From positions 620,001 to 684,000 of the forward strand of contig NZ_CP009287.1 of the NCBI RefSeq assembly GCF_000758705.1: a stretch of 64,000 bases of DNA, written 5' to 3'. The notes under the pieces are model-generated. The model saw only the letters and a list, made by a program, of their open reading frames with translations. It ran no database searches and had not been told where the DNA came from. Positions 3 through 53,340 of this stretch are shown one piece after another. The position numbers and the translations under genes are program-made. This DNA is from Paenibacillus graminis (GTDB lineage: Bacteria; Bacillota; Bacilli; Paenibacillales; Paenibacillaceae). Numbering within the stretch: position 1 is the stretch's first letter; every line of letters starts with the position of its first letter.

Positions 3-173
3 CCTGACGGGATGCCCGGCGTGACTGAGGCTTTCGAAGAGAAGCTCCGGCAGCAGTTGAGGTCTCTTGCGGCAGCAGCTGCGGTACGAGGCATGACGGA
101 AGAGGCATTCGCGCAGGAGAGCAGGTCGGTGTACCGGAATACCATTACAAATCGCGGAGGGGAACAGCGTTGA
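3..173 (+). CDS. GntR-family regulator, C-terminal end (partial)
   Basis: The reading frame is open from the window edge to a TGA that overlaps the TTG start of the next gene (TTGA). The 56 residues left are a charged helical tail (AFEEKLRQQLRSLAAAAAVR then GMTEEAFAQE), like the end of YtrA-type GntR regulators, which often precede DUF1648 membrane proteins. The DNA-binding part lies outside the window, so the family call rests on the tail and on context. The overlap implies translational coupling with the DUF1648 gene. Confidence 0.5.
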   Translation, partial: PDGMPGVTEAFEEKLRQQLRSLAAAAAVRGMTEEAFAQESRSVYRNTITNRGGEQR

Positions 174-1267
174 CTGTACTAGAGACGATCATGATATCCA
201 GCTTTTATTTGTTTATCGCGTTGATGATCAGCATACAGGCCCATATTGGCTTGCGGACCCTGCTGTTCGGCATCACGCTGCCGGCGGAGGCCCTGCAGGA
301 TACGGACGTCCGGGGCATTCGCCGGAATTATGTTTTGCTCACCGGCGGATTTGCGATTGTCATCGGAGTAGCTTGCTTTTTAGTGGCGCGTCACCAAACG
401 ACGAGCCGGAGTTTCCTGTTTTGGGCGATAGCCATCATGCTTTTGATAATGATATCGTTCTTCGCCATTCGGATCAGCAGGAAGTCCGCGCAGCGTTTGA
501 AGGCGGCCAGAGGCTGGGAGGTTGCCGTACAGACGAAGCGCGCAGCAAGCCTCGCGGCCAGCCGGACACATGGTTCGGTGCTGGGCTCTTGGTGGTATGC
601 GGCGCATATCGCCGTGATGGCGTTATGCATCTTCTTTGCCGCCACGAGATGGAACGTTATTCCGCAGCAGATCGCGGTGCATATGGGGCCGGACGGTTTT
701 CCGGATCATTACATTTACAAATCCGTACGAACCGTAATCATGATGAACATCGTGCAAGCGCTGATGATCGCGTTTTTCGCCGGCTATAATCTGATGATCA
801 GCCGTGCCAGAATATCACTGGACCCCCAGGACCGGGAAGGTTCGTTACGAAAACAGTTAAAGCTTAAGAAAATCCACTCGATTACAGCTTGGGGCATTTC
901 GCTGTTGGGCATTGCAAACTTAGGGTTATTGCAAGCCGTAATGCTATACGGCTGGAAGCTCGATCTGCTCATCCGCTACAACCTCTCGTTCATGGCGGTG
1001 TTCTTCTTGGCATTGATTGGTGTCTTGTTTTACCTTCGTTTCAGAGGTCTTGATCAGCAAAGGGACATTCCGTCACAGGAGGAGAGGCACTGGAAGTGGC
1101 TCGGCAGCATTTACGCGAACCCTGAAGACCCGGCGTTGTTCGTTCAGGATCGATACGGATTCTTATGGACGATCAATATGGCTAATCCGCCCGGTAAGAT
1201 CATAGCCGCCGCAACGATAGCCGTTCCGGTAATCGCCATTCTCGTAGCCCTGTTCAATTTCCGATAA
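170..1267 (+). CDS. DUF1648 domain multi-pass membrane protein
   Basis: A 365-residue integral membrane protein with about eight hydrophobic segments (for example residues 5-25, 50-70, 85-105, 145-160, 190-210, 240-260, 275-295 and 345-365). The middle holds a DUF1648-like stretch around residues 160-200 (RWNVIPQQIAVHMGPDGFPD), the signature of a domain shared with SdpI-like immunity or signalling proteins. The TTG start is chosen because GGAGGGG lies 7-13 bases upstream and the start overlaps the stop of the GntR gene. A GntR/DUF1648 pair suggests an envelope-stress or peptide-response module, which is inference. The exact function is unknown. Confidence 0.7.
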   Translation: MTVLETIMISSFYLFIALMISIQAHIGLRTLLFGITLPAEALQDTDVRGIRRNYVLLTGGFAIVIGVACFLVARHQTTSRSFLFWAIAIMLLIMISFFAIRISRKSAQRLKAARGWEVAVQTKRAASLAASRTHGSVLGSWWYAAHIAVMALCIFFAATRWNVIPQQIAVHMGPDGFPDHYIYKSVRTVIMMNIVQALMIAFFAGYNLMISRARISLDPQDREGSLRKQLKLKKIHSITAWGISLLGIANLGLLQAVMLYGWKLDLLIRYNLSFMAVFFLALIGVLFYLRFRGLDQQRDIPSQEERHWKWLGSIYANPEDPALFVQDRYGFLWTINMANPPGKIIAAATIAVPVIAILVALFNFR

Positions 1268-1295: not shown

Positions 1296-3470
1296 ATGAT
1301 GAAAAGCCGATGGATAACGGGCGCTTTGCTAGCTTCGTGTCTGGTGCTGAGCTCCTGGGACGGCAACACAGCACTGGCTGCAATGCAGAACATAGCAGCG
1401 GCACTGCATGCATCTGAGGTAATCGAGTCAAGCTCTGTCCCGGTAAACGTGCAAACAACGGCAATAGGCATGCCTTCGAACAAGGGTGTGATCACCTATG
1501 AAGCAACCCGGAAAGCTGCTCAGGAGAAAGCCGACCTCCTCACGAAAACTTACGGCACGAACAGTGTGCAGTACGCCATTATCGATCATGGCCACATCGT
1601 CGTATCGGGCCAGTCCGGCAAGAATGATGAGCAGGGACAGAAGCCGCTCACGAAAGACACGATGTACGGGATTAGCTCTACGAGTAAAATGTTTACCACG
1701 GTTGCCGTCATGCAATTAGCCGACCAAGGGGAAATCGGCCTCGATACGCCCGTTGTCCAGTATATCCCCGAGTTTACGATGAAGGATGAACGCTACAAGC
1801 AAATTACCCCGCGCATGCTGCTGAATCATTCATCCGGACTGAACGGATCGTCGCTGACGAACGCTGTTTTATTCGAAGATAACGATACTTACGCCCACGA
1901 CACCCTGCTGGGGCAGCTGGCCGGTCAGACCTTAAAGGCGGCCCCGGGTGCTTATTCGGTTTACTGCAATGACGGATTTACGCTGGCCGAGATTCTAATC
2001 GAGCGAGTCAGCGGCATGGACTTTACCTCTTACATCCATAGATATATTACGGAACCTCTGGGTATGGCCAATACGAAGACGCCGCTCGATTCTCCGGACA
2101 CAGCGAAGATGGCGGGACTCTATTATCCTGCCTACGCTGGACAACTCCCCAACGAGACAAGCAACGTGATCGGAGCGGGAGGCATATATTCCACGGCGGA
2201 AGACTTGGCCCGATTCTCGCAAATTTTCACGGGGGAAGCGGAGGGGGTTTTGTCCGGTAAATCGGCTGCGTCCATGGCACAAGACGAGTACAAGACGCCT
2301 TTGTGGCCTGACGATGCGGACAGCTCATTCGATTACGGATATGGTCTTGGCTGGGACAACGTTAATCTGTATCCCTTCAGCGAATACGGGATAAAGGCGT
2401 TGACCAAAGGCGGGGACACACTCTATCACTCGTCGCTCGTTGTGCTTCCCGAACAGGGCATGGCGGCAGCTGTTATCACTTCCGGCGGGAGCAGCACGAT
2501 CGACCGGCTTCTGGCGAACCAAATCCTGCTTCATGCGCTGAAGGAGAACGGGACAATTGCCGAATTCAAGCCTGAAAAGTCATACGGTGTACCGGTAAAA
2601 GCTGATATGCCGGAGTCCGTGCAGCAGTATTCGGGAATCTACGGCGCGACTAATACAACGGTAAACATTGATATTACAAAAGGCGGCGTTATGTCCATTA
2701 CTTCGGAGCAGTCACCCGGTAATCCGGCCCAGATCTTCGGGTATTCGGCGGACGGCACGTTCCGGAGTGCGGATGGGAATACGAAGATCAGCTTCGTGAC
2801 GGAGGAGAACGGCCGCACCTACTTATGGATACGTCAATACGCTTCATTGCCGGGCCTTGGGCAAATGTCTACATCCGTGTACAACGCCGAGAAGCTCCAG
2901 CCCCAAAATCTTCCGGCAGAGACCAAAGAAGCATGGGTAAAGCGTGATGGCAAGAAGTATTATCTGTTGAATGAGAAGTATACGTCGTTCGTTTATTTGG
3001 TGGTGCCGCCCATCCAATTGAATGTGTCGAAACAATTGCCGGGGTATGTGTTGGATAAGCGAATAACAGGCCCGAATACGGCCATCTCCGAATTGCAAAT
3101 TCCGGGAATGAGCGGGCGGGATCTCTCAGGTTATACGTTCTTTACTCAGGACGGTGTTGAGTACCTGGATACTGGTGGAAGAATCTTAATGAACGAGGAC
3201 GCTGTGAAGCCTATCTACATCGCTAAGAAGTCAATCGTTACGATTCCGCCCGGCGGATACGCCCGATGGTATACGATAAGCGACAAAGACGGGGGTAAGA
3301 CCGTTAAGGTGAGTACGTCCTCGAACACCTCCTTCGCTGTTTATAATGCAAAGGGATCATGCATCTACTTCAGTCTTATCGGAGGCAAAGATCAGGTCGA
3401 ACTGCCTGCGGGAGGGTCGATTGTTTTCGCCGGAGATGCCGGCACGAAGTTCGAGATTTCCGCGCAGTAA
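1296..3470 (+). CDS. Secreted serine hydrolase of the beta-lactamase/penicillin-binding family
   Basis: A 724-residue protein with an N-terminal signal peptide (basic start, hydrophobic residues 8-20, cleavage probably after TALA). The class C beta-lactamase/D-Ala-D-Ala peptidase fold covers roughly residues 75-420: the SxxK nucleophile motif is S128-T-S-K131, the Y-x-N motif is Y223-C-N225, and TKGGDT is the likely third motif. The following ~300 residues are a beta-rich C-terminal extension of the kind seen in secreted family members. AAGGAGAG precedes the ATG. It probably hydrolyses an ester or D-amino-acid peptide outside the cell; substrate and true beta-lactamase activity cannot be inferred. 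It follows the DUF1648 gene by 28 bases and may be cotranscribed. Confidence 0.82.
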   Translation: MMKSRWITGALLASCLVLSSWDGNTALAAMQNIAAALHASEVIESSSVPVNVQTTAIGMPSNKGVITYEATRKAAQEKADLLTKTYGTNSVQYAIIDHGHIVVSGQSGKNDEQGQKPLTKDTMYGISSTSKMFTTVAVMQLADQGEIGLDTPVVQYIPEFTMKDERYKQITPRMLLNHSSGLNGSSLTNAVLFEDNDTYAHDTLLGQLAGQTLKAAPGAYSVYCNDGFTLAEILIERVSGMDFTSYIHRYITEPLGMANTKTPLDSPDTAKMAGLYYPAYAGQLPNETSNVIGAGGIYSTAEDLARFSQIFTGEAEGVLSGKSAASMAQDEYKTPLWPDDADSSFDYGYGLGWDNVNLYPFSEYGIKALTKGGDTLYHSSLVVLPEQGMAAAVITSGGSSTIDRLLANQILLHALKENGTIAEFKPEKSYGVPVKADMPESVQQYSGIYGATNTTVNIDITKGGVMSITSEQSPGNPAQIFGYSADGTFRSADGNTKISFVTEENGRTYLWIRQYASLPGLGQMSTSVYNAEKLQPQNLPAETKEAWVKRDGKKYYLLNEKYTSFVYLVVPPIQLNVSKQLPGYVLDKRITGPNTAISELQIPGMSGRDLSGYTFFTQDGVEYLDTGGRILMNEDAVKPIYIAKKSIVTIPPGGYARWYTISDKDGGKTVKVSTSSNTSFAVYNAKGSCIYFSLIGGKDQVELPAGGSIVFAGDAGTKFEISAQ

Positions 3471-3688: not shown

Positions 3689-4669
3689 TCAACGGTCGCG
3701 TCCGGCAAAATACTGCAGCAATGTCTCGAGATCGGCATGTGCCGGGTAGCTGGAGAGCCGCTGGATAATTGCGGCAGCCTGGTCGAGATAATCCTGGCTG
3801 ACCCCCTCGGTACGGGCCAGGGCGTCGCTGCGGTTAATCAGGGCTAGCACATCAGCCACCTCTTCCTCTGAAGAGGCAGGGCCAATGGTGCGGATAACAG
3901 GCGCCAGTTCAGGGTCCTGCAGGGCAAAAAGCACAGGAAGGGTAACCTGCCCGTTGCGGAGGTCGCTGCCAGCAGGCTTGCCAAGCACATCGGCGGACTG
4001 GGTGAAGTCAAGCAGGTCATCCTGGATTTGAAAGGACATGCCCAGCGCCTCGCCAAAGTTGTAGAGCAGGTCCGCGACTTCTTCCGGGCTCTCTGTAGAA
4101 AGTGCGCCCACCCGCAAGCAGGTGGCCATCAGCATGGCTGTTTTGTTGCGGGATTTCTCCAGGTATTCCTCAAAAGTGAGATTATAGTCGTAGGCATGCT
4201 CCATTTGCTGGTACTCTCCCAGACACAGCTGGGCAGTAGCCACGGAAGACAAGTCGTGGACATAACGGTTTTTGTCACCGGTGTATTTGCTGAGCAGCTC
4301 AATCACCCGGGCAGACATATAATTCCCGATATGGACTGCGGAGAGCACGCCAGTTCTGGTATGCAGGGCAGGAGCGCCCCGCCGCAGTTCGGCATCATCA
4401 ATAATATCATCATGAATTAATGAGGCAGCGTGAATAAATTCTGCAGCAGCAGATAATTGAAGCGTTCTCCGCCCCGAAGGTTTACGTCCAAAACGGCTGC
4501 CGACGATGACCATCAGCGGCCGGAGACGTTTCCCCCCGGAGCCGGTCAGCTCCAGAATGCTCTGCGCGAGCTGCGACTTTTTGGGTACGTCTTTATCACG
4601 GGCCACAATATTCTGAATTTCATGGTTAATTTCGTCCAGGTCTATATTTAAGGCTTCATGCAGCTTCAT
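3689..4669 (-). CDS. Polyprenyl diphosphate synthase, DmkB/HepT-like
   Basis: An all-trans polyprenyl synthase (326 residues) that elongates farnesyl or geranylgeranyl diphosphate with IPP to the menaquinone side chain. The first aspartate-rich motif is LIHDDIIDDAELRRG and the second is FQIQDDLLDF; GSGGKRLRP is the IPP-binding stretch. The frame also allows a GTG start at 4684, but AGGTGG upstream fits the ATG at 4669 better. It lies 18 bases after the HepS-like gene and is the last gene of the pplA-ndh2 run. In Listeria the EET locus carries its own heptaprenyl synthase (DmkB) making a demethylmenaquinone pool, so the same job is inferred here. A general menaquinone HepT cannot be ruled out. 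Confidence 0.88.
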   Translation of the reverse strand: MKLHEALNIDLDEINHEIQNIVARDKDVPKKSQLAQSILELTGSGGKRLRPLMVIVGSRFGRKPSGRRTLQLSAAAEFIHAASLIHDDIIDDAELRRGAPALHTRTGVLSAVHIGNYMSARVIELLSKYTGDKNRYVHDLSSVATAQLCLGEYQQMEHAYDYNLTFEEYLEKSRNKTAMLMATCLRVGALSTESPEEVADLLYNFGEALGMSFQIQDDLLDFTQSADVLGKPAGSDLRNGQVTLPVLFALQDPELAPVIRTIGPASSEEEVADVLALINRSDALARTEGVSQDYLDQAAAIIQRLSSYPAHADLETLLQYFAGRDR

Positions 4670-4687
4670 CGTTTTGGTTCCCACCTG

Positions 4688-5137
4688 TCAAATGGCTTTG
4701 CTTGTGCGGCTTTGCTGGTTTTGCTCCTGAATCAGGAACCCTTCAATGCCCGCCGCCGGGTTTTGAGCCGCGAAGTCCCCATTTGACCGCGCGATTTGCA
4801 TTTTTTTAATCGAAGGAGCCAGATAAGCAACCAGGTCCAGTTCACGGCATTTTACTGCGAATTGCAAATAAAAGCTGTACAAATAATCTCCATCCAAAAT
4901 GTTGCGGGTCAGGTCAGGATGATGTGGGGCACATTCCATATGGCGTTCAGCCGCCACGGTAAGAATGATATAAATACCTAGCAAATGGACTTTGCGGTCA
5001 TATTCCAGATCATGGCGTTCCAGTACCGAGAACAACTGCTCACATTCTGCCGGAGAGAGATGCAACTGAATTCCGGCGATCGGTGACATTTCAGCCTGAA
5101 GCAACCGGAAGCTGTCTTCCATAAGTTTTCTGTTCAC
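4688..5137 (-). CDS. Short heptaprenyl diphosphate synthase component 1-like protein
   Basis: The GTG start is set by AAGGAGAG eight bases upstream; the frame stays open further upstream but without a ribosome site. The 149-residue product has, near residues 80-120, the pattern NILDGDYLYSFYLQFA followed by LDLVAYLAPSIKKM, which resembles the GDY...YY and LA-AIK-IN stretch of HepS (the small regulatory subunit of heptaprenyl synthase, normally about 250 residues). It sits just upstream of a HepT-like catalytic gene, as HepS partners do. It is much shorter than HepS, so it may be a minimal chain-length subunit. The family call is by motif memory and is moderate. Confidence 0.55.
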   Translation of the reverse strand: MNRKLMEDSFRLLQAEMSPIAGIQLHLSPAECEQLFSVLERHDLEYDRKVHLLGIYIILTVAAERHMECAPHHPDLTRNILDGDYLYSFYLQFAVKCRELDLVAYLAPSIKKMQIARSNGDFAAQNPAAGIEGFLIQEQNQQSRTSKAI

Positions 5138-5302
5138 AAGATTCTCTCCTTCTTGTCGGTTTTGCCGGAAGCAACCATAGCCTTGATTATCCCTACAAAA
5201 CCTTTTGTAAAAAACAAGACCCGGGACGGTTTCAGGAGTCCCTGTCCGTTGAAGAAGTAAACTATTAAACGGTTGGTTAGGCCTAAGCCTTAATAAATAA
5301 GG

Positions 5303-5332
5303 AGAGTAATGTGTCCATGGACACATTACTCT
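5303..5332. repeat. Perfect 30-bp palindrome without loop
   Basis: The arm AGAGTAATGTGTCCA (5303-5317) is followed at once by its exact reverse complement. It lies between the end of ndh2 and the HepS-like gene. No T tract follows on either strand, so it is not a standard terminator. It could be an RNA processing or stabilising hairpin within the operon message, or an operator for the distal genes. Confidence 0.7.
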
Positions 5333-5430
5333 TAAGAACATCATATTCAGCTGCAGCAACATAAAATACACATAAGTTGCTGATATACTTAATTAAACGG
5401 CGTCAGAAACGCTAAACAGCAGGGTTAATA

Positions 5431-7311
5431 TCAGTCCGTATATAGATACCAGCGCCGCACAAGCGGGATTCGTTTCCATTGCTTCTTGAGCCAAGGCAGG
5501 ACATAGTAGTCCAGACCGAAGACGCTGCCTGATCCTCCGATGCACGCGATAGCCGCTCCAACGTACCAGAGCATTTCTGTCGCTGCCATCTTGGTAGACC
5601 ATATCATGACTGCCATTGCAATGGTGGCAAGTGAAGAGATGGCAGTAAAGAGACCTACGATAAGCATAATACCAAAGACGATTTCGGCACAAACCATGCC
5701 GATTTGGAACCATTTAGCCAAGAATGTATAACTTCCGTCATTGTTGTAGAACATCAGATCCATGAACCAGTTCGTAATGTCATACACAAAGCCTGGTACC
5801 GGAAGAGCCGATACAGCTTCTTTGGCAGTGGAAACTGCGGAAGCCGCGGACTGCGCATCTACTGTTGTTTTTACAGCATCTACGGCCACGCTCGCTGATG
5901 AAGCAGCATCCGTAGCAAATGGAGCAGCAGGAATCAGGAAGATTTTGTCCGGGTCAACCCAGATCTTTCTGAGTTTATCGATCCCTTCATATAACCACAT
6001 GCCCCCGAGCAGCATACGAAGCGGAACGAGCCAGAAGTTCGGCGAACGCTTGGAGAAGTAGCCGCCGACGAAGCTCTTGCGGTTCTCCACATGGAAGAAC
6101 TCGTGCATCATATAGGTCCATACTTTGTTAAAACCTACCACTTGAGATAGATAGAACATATTGATAAAATGCTTGGACAACATAGCCATGAAGCCTGTAA
6201 GCATAAAGAGCTTGCCTGGAAGACCAACGTTGGCTACACCATAGCGGCTTCCGATGGAGACCATCGTGCCGTGAAATCCTGGTTTGTACGCTTTTTTGGC
6301 AGTACCGCTGATGTCAGCGGCGATGTTGCCGGCAACGAGTGGAGCCGCCTGTTCAGCATTTTCAACCATCTGTGGAACCGGACGGGTTTCGCCTTCAGGA
6401 ATAAAGAAGATGTTGTCCCCTACAACGTAGACGTTCTTATGGTCAACACTTTCCAGATGTTCATTGGTTACGATGCGTTTGCGTCCCTGCTGCTGGACTT
6501 CAAGGCCGCCGACGATTTCGGAGCCTTCCACACCGGCAGTCCAGACAATGGTTTTGGCGTCAACGACATTCTTCTCGCCGAGAGCCACACTGCCTTCGCC
6601 TACTTCGGTGATTTTGGCACCGGTCACGATTTCAACCTTCAGCTTGCGCAGGCGGGCTTCAGCTTTCTGAATAAGCTTATCCGGCAGGATAGGCAGAATC
6701 TTCGGAGCCATATCGGCAACAATGAGCCGTACTTCGGATGGATCAATGAAGAATTCTCTGCACAGCTCTTCGCGCTGCTCGGCCATTTCCCCAACCAGCT
6801 CGACACCAGTGAAACCGGCACCAATGATGACGAAGGTCAGCATTGCGCGGCGGACGGCAGGGTTCTTTTCTTTGGCAGCTTGGGTGTACATATCGCGGAT
6901 TTGGCGTTTGAGCGCAACCGCGTCATCGTAGGACCAGAACGAGAAGGTATTTTCTTCTGCTCCGGGAATTCCGAAGAACGTTGGTTTGCTGCCTGTGCCG
7001 ATTACCAGGTAATCATAAGCATAGGTTGCCTTGTCGGATTTCAGCTTCTTGTTTTTGAAATCAATATTGCTGATTTCATCCAGAACAACATCCACTTTCA
7101 GACCGGCGAAAATTTTCTTCAAATCAACCTTGATTGAATCCTCAGGCGCACGATTCGCAGATACCTCATGCAGCTCAGTCAAGAGAGTGTGATAAGGATT
7201 TCGGTCGATCAGCTTGATTTCTACATCTTTGTTGTTCTTATACTTCTTTGCCAGTTTCTTAGCCGTGAGTACGCCGCCGTAGCCGCCGCCCAAAATGACT
7301 ATTTTTTTCAA
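5431..7311 (-). CDS. ndh2: Type II NADH dehydrogenase with C-terminal membrane domain (EET Ndh2-like)
   Basis: A 626-residue flavoprotein that passes electrons from NADH to quinone without pumping protons. Residues 1-390 are the pyridine nucleotide-disulfide oxidoreductase fold: FAD-binding GGGYGGVLTAKKLAKK at the N terminus, a second dinucleotide site (VIIGAGFTGVELVGEMAE) near residue 165 and the ...VYVVGDN FAD motif near residue 300. Residues from about 430 onward add hydrophobic helices with a DoxX-like look (LRMLLGGMWLYEGIDKL; FQIGMVCAEIVFGIMLIVGL). The length and this extra membrane tail match the Ndh2 of the Listeria EET locus rather than ordinary ~400-residue NDH-2. TTG start with GAGGTGA seven bases upstream. 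It is 48 bases downstream of the PplA-like gene. Confidence 0.88.
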   Translation of the reverse strand: MKKIVILGGGYGGVLTAKKLAKKYKNNKDVEIKLIDRNPYHTLLTELHEVSANRAPEDSIKVDLKKIFAGLKVDVVLDEISNIDFKNKKLKSDKATYAYDYLVIGTGSKPTFFGIPGAEENTFSFWSYDDAVALKRQIRDMYTQAAKEKNPAVRRAMLTFVIIGAGFTGVELVGEMAEQREELCREFFIDPSEVRLIVADMAPKILPILPDKLIQKAEARLRKLKVEIVTGAKITEVGEGSVALGEKNVVDAKTIVWTAGVEGSEIVGGLEVQQQGRKRIVTNEHLESVDHKNVYVVGDNIFFIPEGETRPVPQMVENAEQAAPLVAGNIAADISGTAKKAYKPGFHGTMVSIGSRYGVANVGLPGKLFMLTGFMAMLSKHFINMFYLSQVVGFNKVWTYMMHEFFHVENRKSFVGGYFSKRSPNFWLVPLRMLLGGMWLYEGIDKLRKIWVDPDKIFLIPAAPFATDAASSASVAVDAVKTTVDAQSAASAVSTAKEAVSALPVPGFVYDITNWFMDLMFYNNDGSYTFLAKWFQIGMVCAEIVFGIMLIVGLFTAISSLATIAMAVMIWSTKMAATEMLWYVGAAIACIGGSGSVFGLDYYVLPWLKKQWKRIPLVRRWYLYTD

Positions 7312-7359
7312 GAGAAACTCACCTCATTCATCTGATTAGCTGCAAAAGGTAAACGAATA

Positions 7360-8274
7360 TTATTTCGCGCCTTCAAGTGCTTTTTCTGCAAGTGTAAAGT
7401 ATTCGCCAACATGGATAGATACACCGGAGATGGCGTCGGTTTTGCCTTCAGCATCCAGCTTAGGAGCAGCGCCTTTGTTTTCAAGGAAATATTTTTCGGC
7501 AAGGGCGATTTCTTCGTGCCATTCAGCAGAAGCGCCGCCGGCTTTCATGCCGTATTTGCCATCTATTGAATATTGCTTCTTGTCATCCCCTGCAGCATTC
7601 ACGCCGCTGAAGTTAGCTGCAACGATATTGCCATTGGCAACAGTAAGAGCAACAGTGGATTTCCAGCCGGATTCTTTATCCATTTCGCCTTCTGCGAAGT
7701 ATCCGCCATCTTTGTAAGGGCCAGCTTGTGCAGGGCCTGCAGCAAGAGCAGCTTGAGCAGCAGAAACAAAGTCATTAACGTGTACAGATACACCGGAGAT
7801 AGCATCGGTATGTCCTTCAGCATCAACTGCGATAGCTGCCGGATCTTGTTTTTCAATCAGGAATGCTTCAGCTTTGGCTGCTTGTTCATGCCATTCAGCT
7901 TGAGCGCCGCCTTTTTTGACCAGACCGTATTTGCCGTCCTCGGATACTTTTTTCTTCAGGTCGCCAGCTGTTTTGATATTGAAGGCATTCCAGTCGGCCT
8001 TGGTGATCTTTCCGCCTTCTACAGTCAACAGGGCATAGGTCTGCCAGCCTGTTTCCGGATCGGCTTCAATGGTTCCGTAATATGTTCCATCTTGATACTT
8101 GCCTGTTTCAGCAGTGCCGGCATCGGATGCGGCAGGTGCAGTGGTCGTGGAAGGTGCAGCGGATTCTGCAGGAGCGTTGGTTGCTGCCGTGTTGTTACCA
8201 TTGTTGTTGCCGCAGCCCGCGAGCAAAGTACCCAGTACGAGAGCACTCGACAAAATTACAGAAGCTTTTTTCAT
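7360..8274 (-). CDS. pplA: PplA-like flavinylated lipoprotein with two FMN-binding domains
   Basis: A 304-residue lipoprotein: signal peptide with lipobox LAGC (Cys near 21), a Ser/Thr/Ala-rich linker (residues 25-57), then two homologous FMN-binding domains (about 58-165 and 187-300). Each domain repeats the plan Y-DGTYYG/GGYFAEG...ETGW/ESGW...KYGxxxxGGAxAEWHE, and ends in a flavinylation-type motif TDAISGVS, where the last Ser would carry FMN through an ApbE-type transferase. In Listeria PplA such a protein relays electrons across the wall to iron and flavins, and its signal peptide yields a pheromone. GGAGGTC precedes the ATG. First gene of the run with ndh2; two FNR/CRP-like boxes lie upstream. 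No ApbE gene is in the window. Confidence 0.87.
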   Translation of the reverse strand: MKKASVILSSALVLGTLLAGCGNNNGNNTAATNAPAESAAPSTTTAPAASDAGTAETGKYQDGTYYGTIEADPETGWQTYALLTVEGGKITKADWNAFNIKTAGDLKKKVSEDGKYGLVKKGGAQAEWHEQAAKAEAFLIEKQDPAAIAVDAEGHTDAISGVSVHVNDFVSAAQAALAAGPAQAGPYKDGGYFAEGEMDKESGWKSTVALTVANGNIVAANFSGVNAAGDDKKQYSIDGKYGMKAGGASAEWHEEIALAEKYFLENKGAAPKLDAEGKTDAISGVSIHVGEYFTLAEKALEGAK

Positions 8275-8345: not shown

Positions 8346-8363
8346 AAGTGATAAAAATCACTT
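8346..8363 (-). promoter_or_regulatory. FNR/CRP-type palindrome proximal to pplA
   Basis: AAGTGA-TAAAAA-TCACTT is a perfect inverted repeat with the 6-bp spacer of FNR/CRP-family sites (Bacillus Fnr consensus TGTGA-N6-TCACA). Its centre is 80 bases upstream of the pplA ATG, so an AT-rich -10 region near 8313-8325 would place it near -41.5, the class II activator position. A weaker TGA-N6-TCA copy is centred 21 bp further up at 8369-8382, two helical turns away. Confidence 0.6.
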
Positions 8364-8507: not shown

Positions 8508-8523
8508 TGTGAAAATAATCACT
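8508..8523 (-). promoter_or_regulatory. Distal FNR/CRP-type site
   Basis: TGTGA-AAATAA-TCACT matches the Bacillus Fnr/CRP-like consensus TGTGA-N6-TCACA at nine of ten fixed positions. It lies about 240 bases upstream of pplA and about 215 bases upstream of the divergent csbD gene, so it could act on either or on an upstream start site. The sequence match is clear, but the regulator is inferred. Confidence 0.5.
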
Positions 8524-48344: not shown

Positions 48345-48777
48345 CTGTTGGCGTTTCGGCTTCATGTGCAGCCAGTTGCTCGCGCATCTGCCGGATCTGT
48401 GCCTTGAGCTCAGGCAGGTTCATCCTGAGGATTAGACTGATGTCCGTAAGGGACAGGCGCAGGCCATACCGGAGCGCATGCACAAGCTGGTCCTCCCAGG
48501 ACAGGCAGGCCGAAATACGGGACTTGCGGCCTTGGGCAATCCGGGAGCAACAGCGGATGCATTCACGGTAGGCCTGGAGGGAGAAGCTCTGCGCGTCACA
48601 GCCTGTACGCAGATACGGCTCATAAAGCTCCGTGAAGCTCTTCACCGCAGCCTCCTCTGCTTCGGCCCCCTGCCCGAGCAGCAGCCTGCTGAGCATGTAG
48701 ATATTCCCGCTGTACTTCTCAATATACTCGGCAAATCCGGCTGTTGAAGCCGACGTGCGTGATAAGGGATCGGGCAT
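48325..48777 (-). CDS. Sigma-factor-like protein, second gene of the riboswitch operon
   Basis: 150 residues from an ATG after AAAGGACTGTGAG. The layout resembles an ECF sigma factor: FAEYIEKYSGNIYMLSRLLLG then AEEAAVKSFTELYEPYL (region 2-like) and a C-terminal LRLSLTDISLILRMNLPELK (region 4-like HTH). The core is short and several consensus residues are absent, so it may be a degenerate sigma or another helical regulator. It starts 28 bases after the 170-residue gene. Confidence 0.5.
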   Translation of the reverse strand: MPDPLSRTSASTAGFAEYIEKYSGNIYMLSRLLLGQGAEAEEAAVKSFTELYEPYLRTGCDAQSFSLQAYRECIRCCSRIAQGRKSRISACLSWEDQLVHALRYGLRLSLTDISLILRMNLPELKAQIRQMREQLAAHEAETPTASLSVG

Positions 48778-53236: not shown

Positions 53237-53340
53237 AGACAGCAACCCTGGCGGCACCTGGCGGAGCATAAACAACGTCAAAAGTGCCGTTGTTTTGAAG
53301 GGAATTAGGGTGAGGATCATCACTTCTGGCGTAATGACAA

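Follow-up and report, generated by a model that had tools for sequence, protein, structure and literature searches.

Flavin-based extracellular electron transfer genes of Paenibacillus graminis and their association with a U32-family protein, an aminotransferase and an MqnP-like prenyltransferase

The closest described systems are the extracellular electron transfer (EET) loci of Listeria monocytogenes and lactic acid bacteria, which encode FmnA, FmnB, DmkA, DmkB, EetA, EetB, Ndh2 and PplA (PMC10373932, PMC8906456, PMC9973259, PMC9888254). In Listeria, EetB, FmnA and EcfA/EcfA' are reported to export FAD (PMC9973259), and the EET quinone has been described as 'an unidentified demethylmenaquinone' (PMC9094743). 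Anode reduction is reported to need ndh2 and pplA, and to change little or not at all on deletion of dmkA or dmkB in the presence of an added quinone precursor (PMC9888254). Within the genus studied here, the Cedars isolate of Paenibacillus sp. carries an EET operon and is reported to perform EET and to reduce magnetite; ecfA1-ecfA2-ecfT stand with its EET genes and seven of the eight genes lie in one operon, with dmkA elsewhere in the genome (PMC10373932). As this operon has already been published, the EET locus of Paenibacillus is known and not new. The available part of that account makes no mention of a U32 protein, an aminotransferase or a promoter box (PMC10373932), which are the features considered below.

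We analysed a stretch of 64,000 nucleotides (the window), which spans positions 620001-684000 of the 7.17 Mb, one-contig genome of P. graminis. Four minus-strand genes at window positions 3689-8274 are real. They encode a PplA-like lipoprotein (7360..8274), the type II NADH dehydrogenase Ndh2 (5431..7311), a small HepS-like protein of 149 aa (4688..5137) and a DmkB-like, HepT-like polyprenyl diphosphate synthase (3689..4684). For the HepS-like gene, the start was moved from 5371 to a GTG at 5137, where a Shine-Dalgarno sequence is present. The original prediction had recognised these four genes as the core of a Listeria-type locus, but had called the locus reduced because EetA, EetB, ApbE and DmkA were missing, which is true of the window alone. 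A search of the genome found all of them.

Between 1 and 9 kb left of window base 1 is the other half of the locus. Here, the plus strand carries, in this order, eetA, eetB (PF07456; genome 611642-612085), ecfA1, ecfA2, ecfT, a U32 protein, a class III aminotransferase and a UbiA-type dmkA (genome 618134-618844), so that EetA, EetB and the ECF flavin exporter are all present. Next to dmkA follow genes for a GntR protein, a DUF1648/DUF5808 membrane protein (170..1267, plus strand) and a serine beta-lactamase-family protein (1296..3470, plus strand), after which the four window genes stand on the opposite strand. The GntR gene, partner of the DUF1648/DUF5808 gene, starts at genome position 619772, left of the window, and runs to window position 173. 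The latter two genes of this insert between the two EET halves have no match in 40 other regions of the same layout or in the best 80 of 150 loci. GntR has one weak match in L080, elsewhere in that region. The only apbE gene of the genome, counterpart of fmnB, lies at 1.61 Mb, 1 Mb away from the locus, and its product has a lipoprotein-like N-terminus. An Rfam search of L019 and L020 returned no FMN riboswitch above the gathering score, and one BsrC sRNA.

The genome thus encodes counterparts of all eight Listeria EET proteins, and one locus holds seven of these if ecfT is counted as FmnA (per PMC10373932). For DmkA and DmkB these are the UbiA-family and polyprenyl synthase genes, with DmkA likened to the Listeria protein by family only. 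The locus is a complete EET system that is split by the window edge, and it looked reduced because of where the window was cut. The assignment to the Listeria-type core therefore holds, as does the suggestion that the missing parts lie elsewhere; the description as reduced or minimal does not, and neither does that of unrelated flanks, since the left flank is, beyond the three-gene insert, the rest of the EET locus. A minimal variant that dispenses with EetA, EetB, ApbE and DmkA is next to impossible, as all four are encoded in the genome, three of them no more than 9 kb outside the window.

The layout recurs across Paenibacillus, with variation. PplA is encoded in 84 of 100 genomes of the genus, and 40 of these 84 provided the 40 other regions that, with the P. 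graminis locus, make up a set of 41; this set overlaps in genomes with the best 80 of 150 loci. Unlike in Listeria, apbE stands in trans in the clade of the window. It lies beside eetA in 10 of the 41 regions, so an apbE in trans characterises other clades, among them that of the window. ApbE is absent from seven of the 100 genus genomes, all of which also lack pplA. The dmkA gene is found elsewhere in the genome in 8/41 regions. Further differences from the Listeria-type locus are the added HepS-like protein, U32 protein and aminotransferase.

Like its Listeria counterpart, the PplA of P. graminis is a lipoprotein that carries a pair of FMN-type domains, as originally proposed. The Pfam FMN_bind search of the genome missed it at E 0.001, which is why the fold was tested, and the fold comparison recovered FMN-type folds for both domains, so that the proposed refutation by a lack of such domains failed. 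The protein stays under the Pfam FMN_bind and NCBIfam cut-offs and, with 78.2 bits against a cut-off of 325 for lipo_FMN_PplA (NF041941), is a PplA-like relative outside that family, in which it differs from the Listeria-type system. NqrC and RnfG were not among its structural matches, which excludes nothing. A second difference is the acceptor motif, which is SGVS (as DAISGVS, twice) rather than the published [S/T]GA[S/T]; across 90 loci, Val precedes the acceptor in 158 of 165 motif matches. FMN would be attached at this SGVS site, which makes the motif a test of how strict ApbE is.

The other three proteins encoded in the window fit the system to varying degrees. Residues 2-394 of Ndh2 match solved NDH-2 proteins and are followed by ~230 extra residues with a hydrophobic stretch, whose similarity to DoxX/DoxD is slightly under the cut-offs. 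The predicted long membrane tail is thus present, and, judged by this tail, the proposed refutation by an ordinary NDH-2 did not succeed. In the DmkB-like synthase, both aspartate-rich motifs are retained, and identity to the HepT encoded by the same genome is 34%. No Pfam or NCBIfam family was matched by the small protein, but a profile of its family could be aligned with HepS across 62 columns (E 3e-5, probability 73, in a low-diversity comparison with one over-long row of 546 aa), so that 'HepS-like' is a reasonable name but not a strong one.

DmkA appears to differ from that of Listeria. Listeria DmkA is probably MenA-like, whereas the protein encoded here is MqnP-like, in a genome that has MqnA and no MenD over the cut-off. 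The main menaquinone operon of P. graminis reads hepS-menG-mqnP-ubiX-mqnA-hepT, and MenD scores above the cut-off in 0/100 genus genomes, which together suggest that menaquinone is made via the futalosine route. With the dmkA of the EET locus, the genome has a second prenyltransferase that resembles its MqnP (41% identity over 281 residues). Both proteins score above the cut-off of the UbiA-like family TIGR01475, and both miss that of NCBIfam MqnP_DT (430 bits), DmkA with 258.5 and the MqnP of the operon with 325.2 bits. Despite this likeness, DmkA is a distinct paralogue, being 66-100% identical to its genus orthologues and ~40-44% identical to MqnP among the matches listed.

Taken as a whole, the locus very likely encodes a complete Gram-positive flavin-based EET system of Paenibacillus. 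Gene content, gene order, conservation, the FMN-type fold and the conservation of a promoter box (see below) are observed; FAD export and flavinylation are taken over from the Listeria papers, and the electron path in P. graminis would follow those of Listeria and Lactiplantibacillus. By this analogy, Ndh2 would oxidise NADH and reduce a membrane quinone, presumably of the demethylmenaquinone type, which would be made by DmkB, the HepS-like protein and the MqnP-like DmkA alongside the main menaquinone operon. FAD would leave the cell through EetB, EcfA1, EcfA2 and the EcfT/FmnA-like subunit, and ApbE, a lipoprotein whose sole gene lies in trans, would use it to place FMN on both PplA domains. 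The quinone would then pass its electrons to the FMN on PplA or to free flavin, and PplA may hand them on to Fe(III), to free flavin or to other FMN-domain surface proteins of the cell. We count several points against this reading: PplA lies under the family cut-offs and its motif is unlike [S/T]GA[S/T], ApbE is encoded outside the locus and lacks the box, eetA lacks the box in 109/112 loci, and a Listeria ΔeetA strain is reported to have no EET phenotype (PMC9973259).

The promoter box in question was found upstream of pplA. Two copies of GTGA-N6-TCAC, which we take to be the core of an FNR/CRP box, lie before this gene in P. graminis, one at 8348..8361, which is conserved in relatives, and one at 8509..8522, which has one mismatch to TGTGA-N6-TCACA. 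The latter is the FNR consensus, and in Bacillus it has an anaerobic meaning. The 64 kb window contains four GTGA-N6-TCAC sites, including these two, where 0.52 are expected. Counts were restricted to loci whose upstream DNA was long enough and whose start could be aligned. Of 78 such loci, 74 have the motif in the 320 bp upstream of pplA, at a distance of 36 to 247 bp from the gene; with a slightly different filter, the count was 73/77 against 0.05 expected from shuffling. The same motif is rare before eetA (3/112), dmkB (0/92), ndh2 (1/79), dmkA (0/108), the aminotransferase gene (5/109) and apbE (2/35), and stands before the U32 gene in 16/111 loci. In P. graminis itself, the best sites have four mismatches before apbE and the menaquinone operon and three before eetA. 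An FNR-type regulator is a candidate for binding the pplA box, and would probably switch on pplA-ndh2-hepS-dmkB at low oxygen. The conserved box would thus make it easy to ask under which conditions EET is switched on in a large genus of soil bacteria. In the open-licence literature searched, we found no earlier report of the box before pplA or of the SGVS motif of PplA.

The U32, aminotransferase and dmkA genes form a block that is closely associated with EET. The aminotransferase gene and dmkA come after the U32 gene in 77 of the best 80 of 150 loci, and the remaining three end at contig ends; in four of these 80, the block has no EET genes nearby. It lies inside the EET locus in 31 of the 41 regions. 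The other ten genomes comprise seven that carry it elsewhere, one (G025) that has it on another contig with ecf genes, and two (G051 and G061) that lack it. Across the 100 genus genomes, U32 and pplA occur together in 82 and are both absent from 14; pplA occurs alone in G051 and G061, and U32 alone in G018, which has lost the half of the locus that holds pplA, and in G022, a fragmented assembly. In a survey of 398 genomes of the class, U32 was found in 22, ten of them outside the genus, and PplA was present in all 22, while four of the 26 genomes with PplA lacked this U32. In loci that hold the block away from the EET genes, U32 is preceded by the box at 68-86 bp in 11/11 cases (nine distinct, as L167 and L239, and likewise L173 and L241, are the same records), which ties the block to PplA independently of gene neighbourhood. 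The boxes thus appear to place the block, PplA and perhaps the partners of PplA under one control, which is probably anaerobic.

Shared ancestry inflates this co-occurrence. Fisher p-values for U32 and pplA overstate it because the genomes are related. The lists of negative genomes behind these values were compiled by eye. On a tree of 60 genomes, which took in seven of the 14 genomes without both genes, the seven negatives need three changes, whereas shuffled labels average 6.7 and give four at the least, so the absences cluster on the tree. There are also exceptions. The block is accessory in G051 and G061, and in G013, dmkA is kept in the EET locus without a match for U32, the aminotransferase or pplA; in this genome, dmkA tracks EET more closely than the other two genes of the block do. 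Taken together, the gene order, co-occurrence and boxes suggest that the two neighbours of dmkA, the U32 and aminotransferase genes, are part of the EET system. We found no report of the likeness of DmkA to MqnP, or linking the U32 protein or the block with EET, in the open-licence literature searched, and a 2026 survey of bacterial quinones contains neither 'Paenibacill' nor 'MqnP' (PMC13386864).

The cysteine motif of the U32 protein, C179-x6-C186-x15-C202-x3-C206, is invariant in 81 sequences and equals the CX6CX15CX3/4C of 4Fe-4S U32 proteins. The protein shares the CX6CX15CX3C motif in the N-terminal half with UbiU-UbiV, TrhP and RlhA, at 29-34% identity (PMC6747719), and UbiU-UbiV are reported to take part in oxygen-independent ubiquinone hydroxylation (PMC6747719). 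In contrast to these proteins, the EET-linked U32 proteins form a separate group, which lies under the NCBIfam cut-offs for UbiU (140.7 vs 440 bits) and TrhP (179.9 vs 534 bits) and has a degenerate second U32-like half. This second half repeats the first weakly (22% identity over 263 residues, E 2e-8) and lacks the motif cysteines. Searches of solved structures gave nothing useful for this protein, and no weight is given to its AlphaFold model, a poor one with a mean pLDDT of 66.5, for which Foldseek returned generic TIM barrels.

These data allow two readings of the block. The U32 protein and aminotransferase may have nothing to do with quinones and may instead act in RNA hydroxylation or elsewhere in anaerobic metabolism, sharing an FNR-type regulon and the neighbourhood with dmkA. 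The nearest E. coli relative of the U32 protein is RlhA, an rRNA hydroxylase (34% over 272 residues), before TrhP (30%) and UbiU (29%), the aminotransferase is about equally close to 4-aminobutyrate, acetylornithine and putrescine aminotransferases, and some EET loci lack both genes. We regard this reading as plausible yet short of probable, as there is no evident reason why an RNA enzyme should stay with dmkA and follow EET across genera. Alternatively, the block could make a dedicated, chemically modified EET quinone, in which U32 would hydroxylate a naphthoquinone or its precursor, DmkA would prenylate it and the aminotransferase would supply or tailor a substituent. The joined genes, the paired presence and absence of U32 and pplA, the cohesion of the block and its own box away from the EET locus, and the invariant cysteines all speak for such a scheme. 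As the closeness to RlhA, the genomes that have EET genes or dmkA without U32 and the inflated co-occurrence count against it, we hold this particular chemistry to be rather unlikely. Slightly more doubtful still is the idea that EET in Paenibacillales relies on a quinone of its own with a distinct chemistry, kept as a separate anaerobic pool reserved for EET. The U32 protein would act in its synthesis as an oxygen-independent hydroxylase, along with the MqnP-like prenyltransferase and the class III aminotransferase, and the FNR-type control would be shared with pplA.

In the broader sense, the U32 protein and aminotransferase probably shape the EET quinone, and the system is best read as including a dedicated, probably anaerobically controlled quinone branch. 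What is added to the known locus is a Paenibacillales prenyltransferase tied to a U32 protein of the 4Fe-4S type by gene order, co-occurrence and promoter boxes. This bears on the identity of the EET quinone. The U32 family includes oxygen-independent hydroxylases.

The final acceptor of the electrons poses a separate question. The system could mainly serve flavinylated surface reductases rather than iron or electrodes, with PplA relaying electrons inside the cell envelope, much as in the Listeria FrdA route to a flavinylated fumarate reductase (PMC9094743). We consider this unlikely as the main function; it would be compatible with EET to iron, and the Paenibacillus isolate with the published operon is reported to reduce magnetite (PMC10373932). 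In its favour, the P. graminis genome encodes two more FMN_bind proteins, and both genes have one-mismatch boxes upstream, a match reached by 1.0% of random 320-bp stretches of the same genome. One (L021) is an exported protein with three domains. The other (L022) is a lipoprotein that combines FMN_bind with an FAD domain resembling those of flavocytochrome c and vinyl phenol reductase, the FAD-domain part scoring below the cut-offs of those families.

Two FMN-type domains, as in the PplA copy of the window, are not universal among PplA relatives, even inside Paenibacillus, since some Paenibacillus relatives (L072-L077; frames of about 180-205 aa) carry a single one. Relatives of greater length (P0053-P0119) reach about 400-480 aa, with three domains in those that were aligned. 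Several of these longer relatives bear names from Spirochaetia or Sphaerochaeta, at 44-57% identity, a level that is high across phyla and may reflect gene transfer.

P. graminis itself encodes other FMN_bind proteins. One, of 772 aa and with three FMN_bind domains (L021:7307-9625; genome 1709307-1711625), is probably exported and could possibly be a partner of the EET system; two FNR/CRP-type boxes, with one mismatch each, lie upstream of its gene. A lipoprotein-like protein (L022:7062-9053; genome 6927062-6929053) combines FMN_bind with an FAD domain that resembles those of flavocytochrome c and vinyl phenol reductase, with scores under the respective cut-offs. Its gene is likewise preceded by a box with one mismatch, and we regard the protein as a candidate flavinylated surface reductase.

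Two EET loci of other Paenibacillus genomes are partly dismantled. G018 (L247) has lost the dmkB-hepS-ndh2-pplA half. G013 (L246) retains ndh2, hepS, dmkB, dmkA and apbE, with no match for U32, the aminotransferase, eetB or pplA. MqnA was not found within the hepS-menG-mqnP-ubiX-hepT stretch of L178-L183, L189, L190, L207 and L236, and the group with no MqnA match there includes six of the seven sampled EET-less genomes.

In P. graminis, an Rfam match to the sRNA BsrC (L019:3155-3241; 74.9 bits, E 1.8e-11) sits ∼2 kb upstream of eetA. Further GTGA-N6-TCAC sites occur at window positions 48632-48645 and 53310-53323.
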